Assembly (NCBI GenBank): GCA_001899635.1
Contig: MKVQ01000015.1
Location: 145,223-209,222 of the forward strand
Origin: Myxococcales bacterium 68-20
Lineage (GTDB): Bacteria > Myxococcota_A > Polyangia > Polyangiales > Polyangiaceae
Reading direction: 5' to 3'
DNA: 64,000 nucleotides
Made by a program: the position numbers and the translations under genes. Below are positions 15,702 through 22,574 of this stretch, in pieces; position 1 is the stretch's first letter, and every line of letters begins with the position of its first letter. Below the pieces are notes generated by a model. That model was not told the origin of the DNA. It saw nothing but the letters and a program-made list of their open reading frames with translations, and ran no database searches.

Positions 15702-16259
15702 CTACTTCTCGATCAGCTTGCGGAGGCGCGGGGTGATGTGCGCGACGGCCCGCTCGCCCTTCACGCCGCCTTCGAAGCGCCGCTCCGACGCGCGGCCGTC
15801 GGGGCCGGGCCTCACGAAGAGCGGGATCAGCTTCGACGTGTAACCGGCGGCGTTGATCCGGTCGCGGTCTTCGTCGAGATCGAACTCGACGATCGACAGC
15901 TCGGGGAAGTCGGCGTCGAGCTCGCCGCGCTGAGCTGCCTGGTGGAAGCGCTGGCACGGCTCGCACCACTTCGCGCCGACGTAGACGATGATCTCCCGCC
16001 CGTCGGCCGCGGCCTTCTCACGCTCGGCGCGAACGAGCTGGGCGACCTCGCCCTCGCCGGGCTTCACGAAGCGGACGCCGCGCGCCAGGACGAGCGGCGC
16101 GCCGGTGTTGGTGTCGTTCGCGGCGGGCTTCGCGTGCCCCGGCGGGTCGGCGGGGTCGGGGCCGGCCGAGGAGCTGCTTTCCGTTCGACTGCAGCCGGAC
16201 GCGAGGAGACCTGCGAGGACGAGAAGCGAGAGCGAGCGAAGAGAGGACACTGGCGGCAT
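15702..16259 (-). CDS. Thioredoxin-fold lipoprotein
   Basis: 185 aa from ATG 16259 (an in-frame GTG lies four codons upstream). The signal peptide ends in lipobox ASGC. A Thr/Pro/Ala linker precedes a thioredoxin-like domain with VYVGAKWCEPCQRFH, a WCxPC redox site, and a cis-Pro candidate in LIPLFV. It probably acts in the periplasm or at the envelope in thiol-disulphide exchange, for example serving the Cys-rich exported proteins nearby; that link is inference. It ends just beside the nested palindrome. Confidence 0.85.
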   Translation of the reverse strand: MPPVSSLRSLSLLVLAGLLASGCSRTESSSSAGPDPADPPGHAKPAANDTNTGAPLVLARGVRFVKPGEGEVAQLVRAEREKAAADGREIIVYVGAKWCEPCQRFHQAAQRGELDADFPELSIVEFDLDEDRDRINAAGYTSKLIPLFVRPGPDGRASERRFEGGVKGERAVAHITPRLRKLIEK

Positions 16260-16335
16260 TCTACAGCTCACTGGGCATCGACGCGCGCCGAAGGCGCACC
16301 ACTGCGGGTGGTTGTCATCTTCCTCCGCCTCCCGA

Positions 16336-16926
16336 TCACGCCGACGGCGGCTCCGACCAGCGGCTCGCGATCTCGTTCCAGGTCGGGAGGGCCTCGTCGG
16401 CCGATGTGTGGAGCACGCGGATGCGCACGATCATTCGCTCCACCACGGACGTGTAGCCGTGCTTGCGCGCCTTCATGAACATCGCCTCCATGCCCGGAAG
16501 CGGGAGCGGATAGCTGAAGCGCACCGTGTCCTGCTCGCGCAGCCGGCCTCCGCCGAGGCGAGCGCCGAGGAGCTCATGCCCGAGCTCCGGGCGTCCGGTC
16601 TCTCGATCGAGGACTTCGATGCATTTGAACGTCGAGTCGAGCCCGTAGACGCGCCGCTTCGTCCAGATCTCGGCCGCGCGCCATGGCTTCCGGTCGGCGC
16701 CCGGGAGTTGCGTCTCGTCGATGACGAAGAGCTCGACGCTCTTCCCCGCGGCGCGCGGCGGCGGCGCGGCAACCTCGCGCGGCGCCGAGCTCATCCGGAC
16801 GGTGCTAGCGAGGTCGGCCGCCTTCTCCCCGCGCGCAGCCCCTCCCGCAGGTGGCACGAGCGTGGATGTTCGCGATGCGAGCGCCGGGGTCTTCTCTCGG
16901 TCTCTTGGCTTCCGTGGGTCGGCCAT
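16336..16926 (-). CDS. Hypothetical protein, 196 aa
   Basis: ATG 16926 (MADPRKPRDREK) is preferred; the frame runs further upstream but that part is Arg-rich. The first 65 residues are charged and probably disordered. The rest is a compact alpha/beta domain with strands such as SVELFVIDETQLP and VYGLDSTFKCIEVLDR and ending with a Trp-rich segment. No signal peptide, no membrane span, no recognised family. It lies between the thioredoxin-like lipoprotein gene and a small Cys-rich gene on the same strand. Confidence 0.65.
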   Translation of the reverse strand: MADPRKPRDREKTPALASRTSTLVPPAGGAARGEKAADLASTVRMSSAPREVAAPPPRAAGKSVELFVIDETQLPGADRKPWRAAEIWTKRRVYGLDSTFKCIEVLDRETGRPELGHELLGARLGGGRLREQDTVRFSYPLPLPGMEAMFMKARKHGYTSVVERMIVRIRVLHTSADEALPTWNEIASRWSEPPSA

Positions 16927-17044: not shown

Positions 17045-17287
17045 CTATCGGCGGGGGACGCGCGATGGGCCGGTCCCGCTCGCGCTCGAAAAGGACCTCG
17101 AGTACAGCGTCGCCGCCTCGTAGAAGGTCAGCGCCGTCTCCGGGCCGCTGCGCGTGCGCTTGTTCGTGTGCGATCGCACCCATACCCAGAACGCCTCGAC
17201 GCACGCACGACACGCGAGCGTGCTCGGCCCGTACTGGCAGCCGGTCGCAGGGTGCGCGGCTGGAGATCTGCAGAAGGTGCACAGCAT
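17045..17287 (-). CDS. Small Cys-rich (zinc-ribbon-like) protein, 80 aa
   Basis: From ATG 17287, the product starts MLCTFCRSPAA and contains CQYG...LACRACVEAFWVWVRSHTNKR. Two CxxC pairs about 20 residues apart suggest a zinc knuckle, followed by an aromatic/basic helix and a Ser/Arg tail. GAGAGAGAG lies a little far upstream as a weak ribosome binding site. The start faces that of the CULT protein, so the two may share a promoter region. No named family. Confidence 0.55.
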   Translation of the reverse strand: MLCTFCRSPAAHPATGCQYGPSTLACRACVEAFWVWVRSHTNKRTRSGPETALTFYEAATLYSRSFSSASGTGPSRVPRR

Positions 17288-17855
17288 GACGACACGCTCT
17301 CTCTCTCCGACCTCACCCGAAGTAAGCATTCTCCGGGCCGTCGCTACCGATGCGACCGGACGTGAGCGCGTCGAGCCGTGCTCCAGGGTGTGCGGCATCA
17401 GCCCGAGCGGGCGGAGGCGAGTCACGGCGGACGGTGTCCACGTCGGTCGGAGCTGGCTCCGCGAAGGTGGTGCTGCCCGTCGAGGTGGGCGCCCGGGGCC
17501 TGGAACGCCCGCGGCGCGTCCGGAGGGCGGCGATGAGCCCGAGGCGACGGAGGAAGAGGAGCGGTGGCTACGGTGCGCTTCGTGCGGTGCGCGCGTCGTA
17601 CGCGAGGCCGCACGGCTCGTCGTGAACGGGAGCCATGAGCACTGCTTCCTCAACCCTTCGGGGATCCGGTACGTCGTCGGCTGCTGGGCGGCGGCGCCCG
17701 GGTGCGTCGCCGAAGGCGAGCGCTCGGCGGTGTGGACGTGGTTTCCCGGCTACGCCTGGCAGGTCGAGCTCTGCCGGAGCTGCTCGACGCATCTCGGGTG
17801 GTCGTTCCACGCGGCCACGTCGTTCTACGCGCTCATTCGAGAGCTCCTCCTGTAA
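17286..17855 (+). CDS. Cereblon-type CULT domain protein
   Basis: Up to 189 aa; the start is uncertain, since the first 90 residues are poorly ordered and the true start may be a later GTG. Residues about 95-185 match the CULT domain, the thalidomide/uridine-binding part of eukaryotic cereblon. Zinc pairs are C97-C100 and C163-C166, with the FLNPSG turn and TWFPGYAW, and HLGWSF closes the ligand cage. The three cage tryptophans (W152, W158, W172) keep the human 6 and 14 residue spacing. Bacterial single-domain CULT proteins are known; their natural role is not. No Lon-like or DDB1-binding part is present. Confidence 0.85.
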   Translation: MTTRSLSPTSPEVSILRAVATDATGRERVEPCSRVCGISPSGRRRVTADGVHVGRSWLREGGAARRGGRPGPGTPAARPEGGDEPEATEEEERWLRCASCGARVVREAARLVVNGSHEHCFLNPSGIRYVVGCWAAAPGCVAEGERSAVWTWFPGYAWQVELCRSCSTHLGWSFHAATSFYALIRELLL

Positions 17856-17902
17856 CGAAGGCGCGCGCGTGCCTCGCTCGAGAGCCCGTACCTAGAAACG
17901 CG

Positions 17903-17936
17903 GAAGGCCGCGCCAGCAGTGCTGGTCGCGGCCTTC
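17903..17936. terminator. Terminator-type hairpin between CULT gene and isocitrate lyase
   Basis: GAAGGCCGCG-CCAGC pairs with GCTGG-T-CGCGGCCTTC with a single bulge and a three-base loop. It lies 27 bases beyond the stop of the - strand isocitrate lyase gene and 48 beyond the CULT gene. It probably serves both convergent units; the U tract is weak. Confidence 0.7.
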
Positions 17937-17962
17937 GAGCGAGCGACGAACCGTGCGGTCGA

Positions 17963-19297
<1,335 letters not shown>

Positions 19298-19325: not shown

Positions 19326-20945
<1,620 letters not shown>

Positions 20946-21113: not shown

Positions 21114-22574
21114 ATGCCCCTGCGTCAAACTGCCGAAGCGCCGCGGTTCGGAGCGAAGGTTCGAGCCCTCCGGCGCCGTGAAGCGCTCAGTCAGGTGCAG
21201 CTCGCGGACAAGCTGGGCGTCTCGCCGAGCTACCTGAATCTGATCGAGAACAACCGCAGACCGCTCCCGGCGAACCTGCTGATCAAGCTCGCGCAGCTCT
21301 TCAGCGTCGACGTCCATTCGTTCGCGACCGACGAAGACGCGCGGCTCGTTGCCGATCTCACCGAGGCGTTCGCCGATCCGCTGTTCGAGGAGCAGGACCT
21401 CACCTCCGTCGACGTGCGTGAGCTGGCCGTCGCGAGCCCGAGCGCCGCGCGCGCCGTGCTGTCGCTCTATCGCGCCTATCAAGCCGCGCGGTCCTCCGCC
21501 GATGATCTCTCGTCCCGCCTCTCGGACGGCGAAGAGCTTGCCTCGCCGGGCGCGCACCTCCCGAGCGAAGAGGTGACGGACTTCATCCAACGCTCCTCGA
21601 ACCACTTCCCGGATCTCGAGGCCGCCGCGGAGGCGATCGCGTCGCGGGCGAAGCTGACGAGCGAAGATCTCTACCCCGGCCTCATTCGCTATCTCGAGAA
21701 GCATCTCGGCATCGAAGTCCAGATTGCGCGCTGGGGCTCGGAGCGCGGCGTCCTCCGCCGCTACGATCCCCACCGCAAGCTGCTCGTCCTCTCCGAGCTC
21801 CTCCCGACGCGCAGCCGCACGTTCCAGCTCGCGCACCAGCTCGCGGTGATGACGCAGGGAGCGCTGATCGACCGGATCACCGCCGAGGCGCGGTTGACGA
21901 CGGAGGAGTCTCGCGGCCTCGCGCGCGTCACGCTCGCGAACTACTTCGCCGGGGCGGTGCTCATGCCGTACGCGGCGTTCCTCGAGGCGGCAAAGCAGGA
22001 GCGCTACGACATCGACGTGCTCGGCCGGCGCTTCCGCGTCGGCTTCGAGCAGGTGTGTCACCGGCTCACGACGCTCCGTCGTCCCGGCGCGGAGGGCGTT
22101 CCGTTCCACATGATGCGGATCGACGTGGCCGGGAACATCTCGAAGCGCTTCAGCGCGTCCGGGATCCGCTTCGCGCGCTTCTCCGGCGCGTGTCCGCGAT
22201 GGAATGTCTTCAGCGCGTTCCTCACCCCCGGGATGATCCGCATCCAGCTCTCGCGCATGCCCGATGCGAAGGAGTACTTCTGCATCGCGCGCACCATCCA
22301 GAAGGACTCGGGCGGCTATCACTCGCAGCACCCGGTCCAGGCGATCGGCCTCGGCTGTCGGGTCGAGCACGCTCGCGAGCTCGTGTACTCGGACGGGATC
22401 GACATCACGAGCCCCGACACCTGCGTTCCGGTCGGCGTCACCTGCCGCCTCTGCGAGCGCACCGACTGCGAGCAGCGCGCGCTGCCGTCGCTCAAGGTGC
22501 CGCTCCGCGTCGACGAGAACGTCCGCGGCGTCTCGCTCTACGCCGCCGTCCACGGCGCACGAGGCCGGAGCTAA
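21114..22574 (+). CDS. RamB/ScfR-like XRE regulator of acetate/short-chain acyl metabolism
   Basis: 486 aa. An N-terminal Cro/C1 helix-turn-helix (about residues 12-66, with LSQVQLADKLGVSPSYLNLIENNRR) precedes an IrrE/ImmA-like segment (about 190-330) and a DUF2083-type C-terminus with a Cys-containing block (CVPVGVTCRLCERTDC). The HExxH of active IrrE peptidases is replaced by HQLAV, so it is probably a sensor rather than a protease. RamB in actinobacteria controls aceA/aceB, and this gene is divergent from aceBA. Role as their regulator is therefore likely, by homology and position. Confidence 0.88.
   Translation: MPLRQTAEAPRFGAKVRALRRREALSQVQLADKLGVSPSYLNLIENNRRPLPANLLIKLAQLFSVDVHSFATDEDARLVADLTEAFADPLFEEQDLTSVDVRELAVASPSAARAVLSLYRAYQAARSSADDLSSRLSDGEELASPGAHLPSEEVTDFIQRSSNHFPDLEAAAEAIASRAKLTSEDLYPGLIRYLEKHLGIEVQIARWGSERGVLRRYDPHRKLLVLSELLPTRSRTFQLAHQLAVMTQGALIDRITAEARLTTEESRGLARVTLANYFAGAVLMPYAAFLEAAKQERYDIDVLGRRFRVGFEQVCHRLTTLRRPGAEGVPFHMMRIDVAGNISKRFSASGIRFARFSGACPRWNVFSAFLTPGMIRIQLSRMPDAKEYFCIARTIQKDSGGYHSQHPVQAIGLGCRVEHARELVYSDGIDITSPDTCVPVGVTCRLCERTDCEQRALPSLKVPLRVDENVRGVSLYAAVHGARGRS

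Follow-up and report, generated by a model that had tools for sequence, protein, structure and literature searches.

Human cereblon (CRBN) carries the thalidomide-binding CULT domain, whose cage is described as a reader of C-terminal cyclic imides that thereby triggers degradation (PMC12117711, PMC12794332); human PCMT1 is described as an enzyme that turns a C-terminal Asn into a cyclic imide (PMC11974815). Single-domain bacterial CULT proteins are also known, with the cultivable Haliangium ochraceum listed among the carriers (PMC4287342). One of them, MsCI4 of Magnetospirillum gryphiswaldense (MGR_0879, "cereblon isoform 4"), has a single CULT domain, two CxxC pairs, a hairpin for which an NPxG tip was described (PMC4449219), and a cage of W79, W85, and W99 (PMC4287342), with the same spacing of 6 and 14 residues as W380, W386, and W400 of human CRBN (PMC12630686). 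Yippee, Mis18, and MsrB resemble CULT in having a beta-tent fold with zinc, but are not known to have the full three-Trp cage (PMC4287342).

We analyzed a 64,000-nucleotide stretch of DNA from Myxococcales bacterium 68-20 (contig MKVQ01000015.1), hereafter the window, in which a preliminary description had recognized a CULT-family gene with a zinc site and an intact three-Trp cage. Sequence, profile, and predicted structure all bore this out. In a phmmer search of the PDB, residues 95-187 (counted from an ATG at 17286) matched MsCI4 (4v32) at E = 1e-18, followed by vertebrate cereblon chains at E = 1.6e-9 to 1.5e-7. A profile made from 15 CULT sequences recovered 47 distinct PDB sequences at E ≤ 0.01, 46 of which are cereblons and one an MsrB chain (E = 0.0012); Yippee, Mis18, and MsrB score far below cereblons in CULT comparisons. 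The similarity is not due to chance, and the domain, placed at about 17568-17852 on the plus strand by the phmmer match to 4v32, an AlphaFold model, and VIA superposition, is real. No CULT model matched the window protein in Pfam-A, where Yippee-Mis18 stayed below its cut-off (16.4 bits versus 26.6) beside two weaker sub-threshold matches, and NCBIfam returned nothing at E 0.001. The preliminary description had proposed a profile search and had taken the lack of a CULT hit as grounds for rejection; our own CULT profile did match cereblons in the PDB, but Pfam did not supply a CULT match, and because the Pfam and NCBIfam scans showed no CULT model, such a rule would misfire there. A single-sequence structure model reached a pLDDT of only 36.1, and an alignment-based AlphaFold model (pLDDT 94.1) was used instead. 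The latter superposes on MsCI4 with a VIA Z of 19.2 (1.0 Å over 97 residues, 36% identity) and on the cereblon thalidomide-binding domain 9odr with a Z of 17.5 (1.2 Å over 98 residues). Judged by its sequence and predicted fold, the window protein is a new member of the known CULT family.

The residues that define the domain are retained in the window protein and are highly conserved in a set of 145 distinct CULT genes. The first zinc CxxC (CASC, 17574-17585) has each Cys kept in 144/145 homologs, and the Cys residues of the second (CRSC, 17772-17783) are present in all gap-free rows (142 and 143 of 145). Between them lies an inserted hairpin (HEHCFLNPSG, 17634-17663) with the NPxG tip NPSG, whose Asn and Pro are kept in 144 and 141 of the 145 homologs, respectively. 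The cage tryptophans (W152, W158, and W172 counted from 17286) are encoded at 17739, 17757, and 17799, so that the cage spans 17739-17801 and falls within WTWFPGYAW (17733-17759) and HLGWSF (17790-17807) of the same plus-strand open frame. They are kept in 144/145, 145/145, and 143/143 homologs (two gapped rows were left out for the third), and their spacing of 6 and 14 agrees with that of CRBN, as had been claimed. At the column of MsCI4 Tyr101, the fourth cage residue, the window protein has a Phe, as does human CRBN, and all 143 gap-free rows have either Phe or Tyr. Two residues before the first cage Trp, in contrast, human CRBN has H378 and the window protein a Trp. Cage and hairpin tip are thus near-invariant across the 145 genes, while many other positions vary. 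We infer the geometry of the three-Trp cage from superposition and conservation rather than from modeled side chains.

The fold, the Trp spacing, and the two CxxC pairs are likewise those of the human cereblon CULT domain, but unlike in human cereblon, no LON domain was found by Pfam at E 1 in the 233-aa frame at 17154-17852. LON-CULT and other fusions were also considered among the homologs and rejected, as 20 frames with long extensions match Yippee-Mis18 only. We expect no DDB1-binding part in the window protein and know of no ubiquitin system through which it could act.

The CULT open frame ends with a TAA at 17855. The start at ATG 17286 given in the preliminary description is probably too early: it overlaps the ATG (17287) of a minus-strand Cys-rich gene, and the DNA around it is conserved in G006, a genome of the same genus in which no CULT was found. 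Because these surroundings persist in a CULT-less genome, we assign ATG 17286 to the start region of the neighboring gene. Between 17286 and the domain, the frame offers just one further standard start codon, GTG 17388, which is the most likely start and gives a plus-strand gene of 155 aa at 17388-17855. This start is also uncertain, since G+C at codon position 3, which is 0.87 in the domain and 0.68 at 17286-17387, drops to 0.75 just upstream of the domain (17388-17567). Depending on the start, the window protein may have a longer N-terminal extension than MsCI4. A scan of 17200-18000 for promoters and terminators found none.

The neighborhood had been put forward as a lead to function, with CULT described as facing a small Cys-rich gene and following a 196-aa hypothetical. 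Both of these genes are on the minus strand (Cys-rich gene, 80 aa, 17045-17287; hypothetical, about 16336-16926, or 229 aa if read from 17025), so CULT does not lie downstream of them in an operon. The hypothetical has no Pfam or NCBIfam match; the Cys-rich gene has no NCBIfam match, nor does a longer frame containing it (17048-17650) match Pfam. Among 96 genomes of relatives, the Cys-rich gene was matched in six, its own included, and the other five (E = 1e-33 to 4e-6; the weakest match spans 26 residues) have no CULT match. It is absent from G005, the other CULT carrier of the genus, and is conserved in relatives independently of CULT. We therefore rejected it as a CULT partner, since it occurs without CULT in five relatives, and the lead is not supported at the window locus; its product appears to be an unnamed small zinc-like protein. 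On the other side, CULT converges with a minus-strand isocitrate lyase gene (17963-19297; NF011645, 754.6 bits), which is followed by malate synthase A (19326-20945, minus strand; TIGR01344, 828 bits) and a plus-strand RamB-like regulator (21114-22574; NF038139, 438 bits, below the cut-off of 700). From its position beside these two genes, the RamB-like gene is a probable glyoxylate-bypass regulator. A candidate thioredoxin-like lipoprotein with a WCEPC motif is encoded at 15702-16271 on the minus strand (Thioredoxin_7, E = 1.8e-5, 25.2 bits, below the cut-off of 27).

About 180 bp separate the Cys-rich gene from isocitrate lyase in G006, where CULT is missing from the gap; in the window the gap is about 678 bp. 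Of the 12 genomes in the genus, two have CULT, and the G005 copy is 58% identical and sits in a different context. CULT has been either gained in the window genome or lost from its relatives, so its current neighbors tell little about its function. The window gene is solitary, with no degradation gene beside it; clpS-clpA is found on another contig of the same genome, which also has one ATE.

CULT was found in 16/96 relatives, 13/108 genomes of the family, 52/317 of the class, and 31/377 of the phylum, as well as in 29/297 genomes of the phylum of G483 (a Deferrisomatales MAG), 20/117 of the order of G465, and 10/184 relatives of G341; these sets overlap. One scan of GTDB contigs with a strict motif gave 41 loci, from Acidobacteria, Gammaproteobacteria, Rhodospirillales, Planctomycetota, Verrucomicrobia, Spirochaetales, and others. 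Searches of 72,556 plasmid records, of 50,697 phage records, and, with two short peptide patterns, of viral contigs gave no CULT match. The distribution is patchy, and almost all CULT-positive genomes carry one copy, with G809 and G053 as exceptions. The second match in G053 (L019, E = 6e-4) was dropped as spurious because by eye it lies in a penicillin-binding-protein frame; the second match in G809 and a partial match in G316 were left out of the CULT set, and two partial frames (L105 and L224) were retained. In a quick tree of 143 CULT sequences, the window protein groups with that of G005 (support 0.93), and phyla are mixed elsewhere. This mixing, seen over 102 alignment columns, fits gene transfer without proving it. 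The tree also contains a divergent subgroup (L220, L222, L237, L033, L034, L127, L129, L130, and L131; support 0.81). By eye, several of its members have a degraded HxH hairpin motif, and in L131 a Phe appears to replace the first cage Trp.

The preliminary description had also called for a census of the neighbors of CULT genes, and it was this census that gave a lead, to protein-degradation genes in other genomes, although none for the window locus. We extracted the sequence flanking each of the 145 distinct CULT genes, predicted the genes in it with a codon-usage script, and scanned neighbors with Pfam. For the first 77 loci, the scan covered 61 of 75 gene calls at -1, 63 of 73 at +1, and 102 genes at ±2; for the next 51 loci, it covered 90 of 98 calls at ±1. 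We excluded very long calls, calls at a distance above 2.5 kb, and calls that seemed antisense; for the last 17 loci, neighbors were inspected by eye and compared with the degradation queries only. The Pfam tables list the 25 commonest families per set with members unnamed, so that rare neighbors are hidden.

Most called neighbors of the 145 loci are lineage-specific, and degradation genes adjoin a minority. At three loci in two families, CULT, clpS, and clpA lie in this order on one strand. Two of them (L027 in G033 and L029 in G025) belong to two genera of the family of the window organism and the third (L206 in G559) to another family. Their CULT proteins are 49-55% identical, and the CULT-clpS gaps are 22 and 24 bp as called, and about 12-21 bp in L029 depending on the choice of start; in L029, clpS had been missed by the codon-usage script and was recovered by an ORF motif and tblastn. 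In G025 and G033, the ClpS next to CULT is the sole ClpS found in the genome. Bpt/ATE is the +1 gene at three loci in two lineages (L069 and L275 in one, and L091), and L220 and L237, of a single lineage, have a Lon-like AAA_32 protease at +1. A pcm gene (PF01135, E = 3e-65) was seen next to CULT once, at -1 and on the same strand, in L116.

To gauge these adjacencies, we compared them with chance expectation. In 2/80 genomes, ClpS is encoded within 1 kb of CULT against 0.03 expected (P = 5e-4), and ATE_C likewise in 2/80 against 0.02 expected (P = 1.3e-4). Both P values are optimistic because the families were tested after being noticed, and the 80 include one genome twice (L085 = G477 = G344). 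Of these 80 CULT genomes, 75 gave a ClpS match and five, some of them incomplete, did not; since ClpS is so common, its co-occurrence with CULT says little. Homologs of ClpS, ATE, the Lon-like protease, and pcm made up 9/281 genes at ±1 versus 2/1056 at three or more genes away (P = 3e-5), a comparison biased toward a link because the queries were picked from genes seen near CULT. With lineages collapsed, the near count is 6/281 (P = 0.002, ClpA/ClpB left out). Five ClpA/ClpB homologs lie far from CULT (L022, L023, L100, L106, and L268), and when ClpA/ClpB are counted the far set rises to 7/1056 (P = 0.002; P = 0.04 with lineages collapsed).

Other families recur about as often as clpS, so the link between CULT and degradation is suggestive only. 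HemD/TP_methylase occurs in 4/90 and Abhydrolase_1 in 3/90 of the scanned ±1 neighbors, and Glyoxalase in 3/63 and RNB in 2/63 of the +1 neighbors (with a third RNB-like case by eye). By eye, four loci from the phylum of G483 (L214, L217, L227, and L236) have a uroporphyrinogen-III methyltransferase/HemD-like gene directly upstream on the same strand; with HEM4 and TP_methylase in 4/90, this arrangement could reflect either synteny within the lineage or a connection to tetrapyrroles. L216, L230, and, by eye, L082 have an alpha/beta-hydrolase-like gene immediately upstream in the same orientation. An Hsp90-like gene noted by eye upstream of CULT in L207 had no Pfam match and was dropped. The clpS-clpA-linked loci all fall in one class, and L209, a tree neighbor of two of their CULTs (support 0.33-0.77), has no clpSA in the 15 kb covered. 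Similarly, L222, a tree neighbor of L220, has no Lon-like gene within 4 kb downstream, the gap between CULT and the Lon-like gene in L237 is about 450 bp, and two members of the L069 lineage, L269 and L271, have CULT and Bpt separated by a gene on the opposite strand.

We tentatively propose that the window CULT is a reader of C-terminal cyclic imides that serves protein quality control without ubiquitin. We consider this possible, at less than even confidence, because the ligand class rests on homology and the protease link, to a moderate degree, on gene context in other genomes. In this proposal, the stand-alone protein would hold a five- or six-membered cyclic imide in its three-Trp cage, and the most likely natural ligand would be the C-terminal imide formed when Asn or Gln cyclizes, whether through ageing or through an isoaspartyl methyltransferase (Pcm), as with PCMT1 in human cells. 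CULT would recognize proteins with such damaged or tagged C-termini and hand them to an ATP-dependent protease, either ClpA-ClpP or a Lon-like enzyme. The unchanged cage, together with the position of some relatives beside pcm or beside ClpS-ClpA or Lon-like genes, makes an imide reader the simplest unifying account. What the protein binds, how clients would reach the protease, and what CULT does in the window organism are inferred.

ClpS is the N-degron adaptor of ClpAP; it reads N-termini and has a flexible N-terminal extension ahead of its binding domain. CULT may be its C-end counterpart, acting without ubiquitin, with the analogous job of bringing proteins that bear a terminal mark to an ATP-dependent protease, although the two have unrelated folds and ClpS is an operon partner in three CULT relatives but not in the window. 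Across 144 CULT loci, the first Cys lies a median of 21 residues from the nearest possible start and 48 from the farthest, and the first ten residues of the window model have a mean pLDDT of 64. By analogy with the human PCMT1-CRBN pathway, pcm and CULT of L116 could be a writer-reader pair, an arrangement seen at this one bacterial locus, outside the window. More broadly, bacterial CULT might represent a ubiquitin-free cereblon pathway, in which the imide is written by Pcm or by ageing and recognized by CULT, and the protein that bears it is degraded by ClpAP or a Lon-like protease. The window gene would then be a solitary member of this system, and the thalidomide pocket would be an ancient C-degron reader, older than its association with an E3 ligase. 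We regard this wider claim as speculative and rather doubtful.

The same neighborhoods could mean that CULT has no conserved partner and moves between unrelated sites, the adjacency to clpS, Bpt, Lon-like genes, and pcm being coincidence or mere synteny. Lineage-specific neighbors do dominate, HemD/TP_methylase recurs in 4/90, the site is CULT-free in G006, phyla are mixed in the 143-sequence tree, and the near/far difference shrinks to P = 0.04 once lineages are collapsed and ClpA/ClpB counted. Such an account nevertheless has to accommodate a clpSA arrangement in two families, with about 50% CULT identity and short same-strand gaps, and ClpS and ATE adjacencies above chance estimates, and we find it somewhat unlikely. 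Variable neighbors, along with the stand-alone architecture, would also suit a soluble sensor or carrier whose cage binds uracil, uridine, or a related heterocycle and which signals or buffers a metabolite. MsCI4 bound both uracil and uridine in a screen (PMC4287342), and complexes with deoxyuridine and valerolactam are in the PDB. No nucleotide-metabolism family appears among the recurring neighbors listed (25 commonest families per set), however, and binding of a small molecule would leave the clpSA, Lon-like, ATE, and pcm neighbors unexplained; we judge a role of this kind unlikely.

That glutarimides are bound by the MsCI4 cage, as many PDB complexes attest, raises another option, namely a protein that sequesters, or confers immunity to, glutarimides or other natural products of the cyclic-imide type from the host or its neighbors. 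CULT has the look of an accessory gene, being present in 16/96 relatives and 52/317 class genomes and missing from its site in a relative, and AMP-binding and KR domains each appear twice among the 61 upstream neighbors. Yet no biosynthetic cluster was recognized by the window CULT among ORFs read at 12-24 kb, and a gene that is mostly single-copy and missing from the plasmid, phage, and viral sets searched argues against immunity, which we consider very unlikely. Finally, CULT could read cyclic-imide damage and then repair, shield, or signal rather than feed a protease, which we think is improbable enough to call decidedly unlikely. It would account for pcm beside CULT in L116, and the MsrB chain reached by the CULT profile (E = 0.0012) shares the beta-tent fold with CULT (PMC4287342). 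Against repair, the predicted fold lies within 1.0 Å of MsCI4, a binding protein, and the clpS-clpA and Lon-like neighbors point to degradation. To our knowledge, MsCI4 catalyzes no reaction.

Returning to the imide reader linked to proteolysis, we found no report connecting bacterial CULT to Clp, Lon, or Pcm in the parts available of openly licensed PMC papers, and the census therefore offers a fresh and testable lead, for which the CULT-clpS-clpA and pcm-CULT loci are concrete places to test. MsCI4 serves as a model in the design of thalidomide-type ligands. If our proposal is true, compounds of this type could become tools for steering protein degradation in bacteria, and the cereblon pocket would represent an ancient device for protein quality control, which would explain the origin of a medical drug target.
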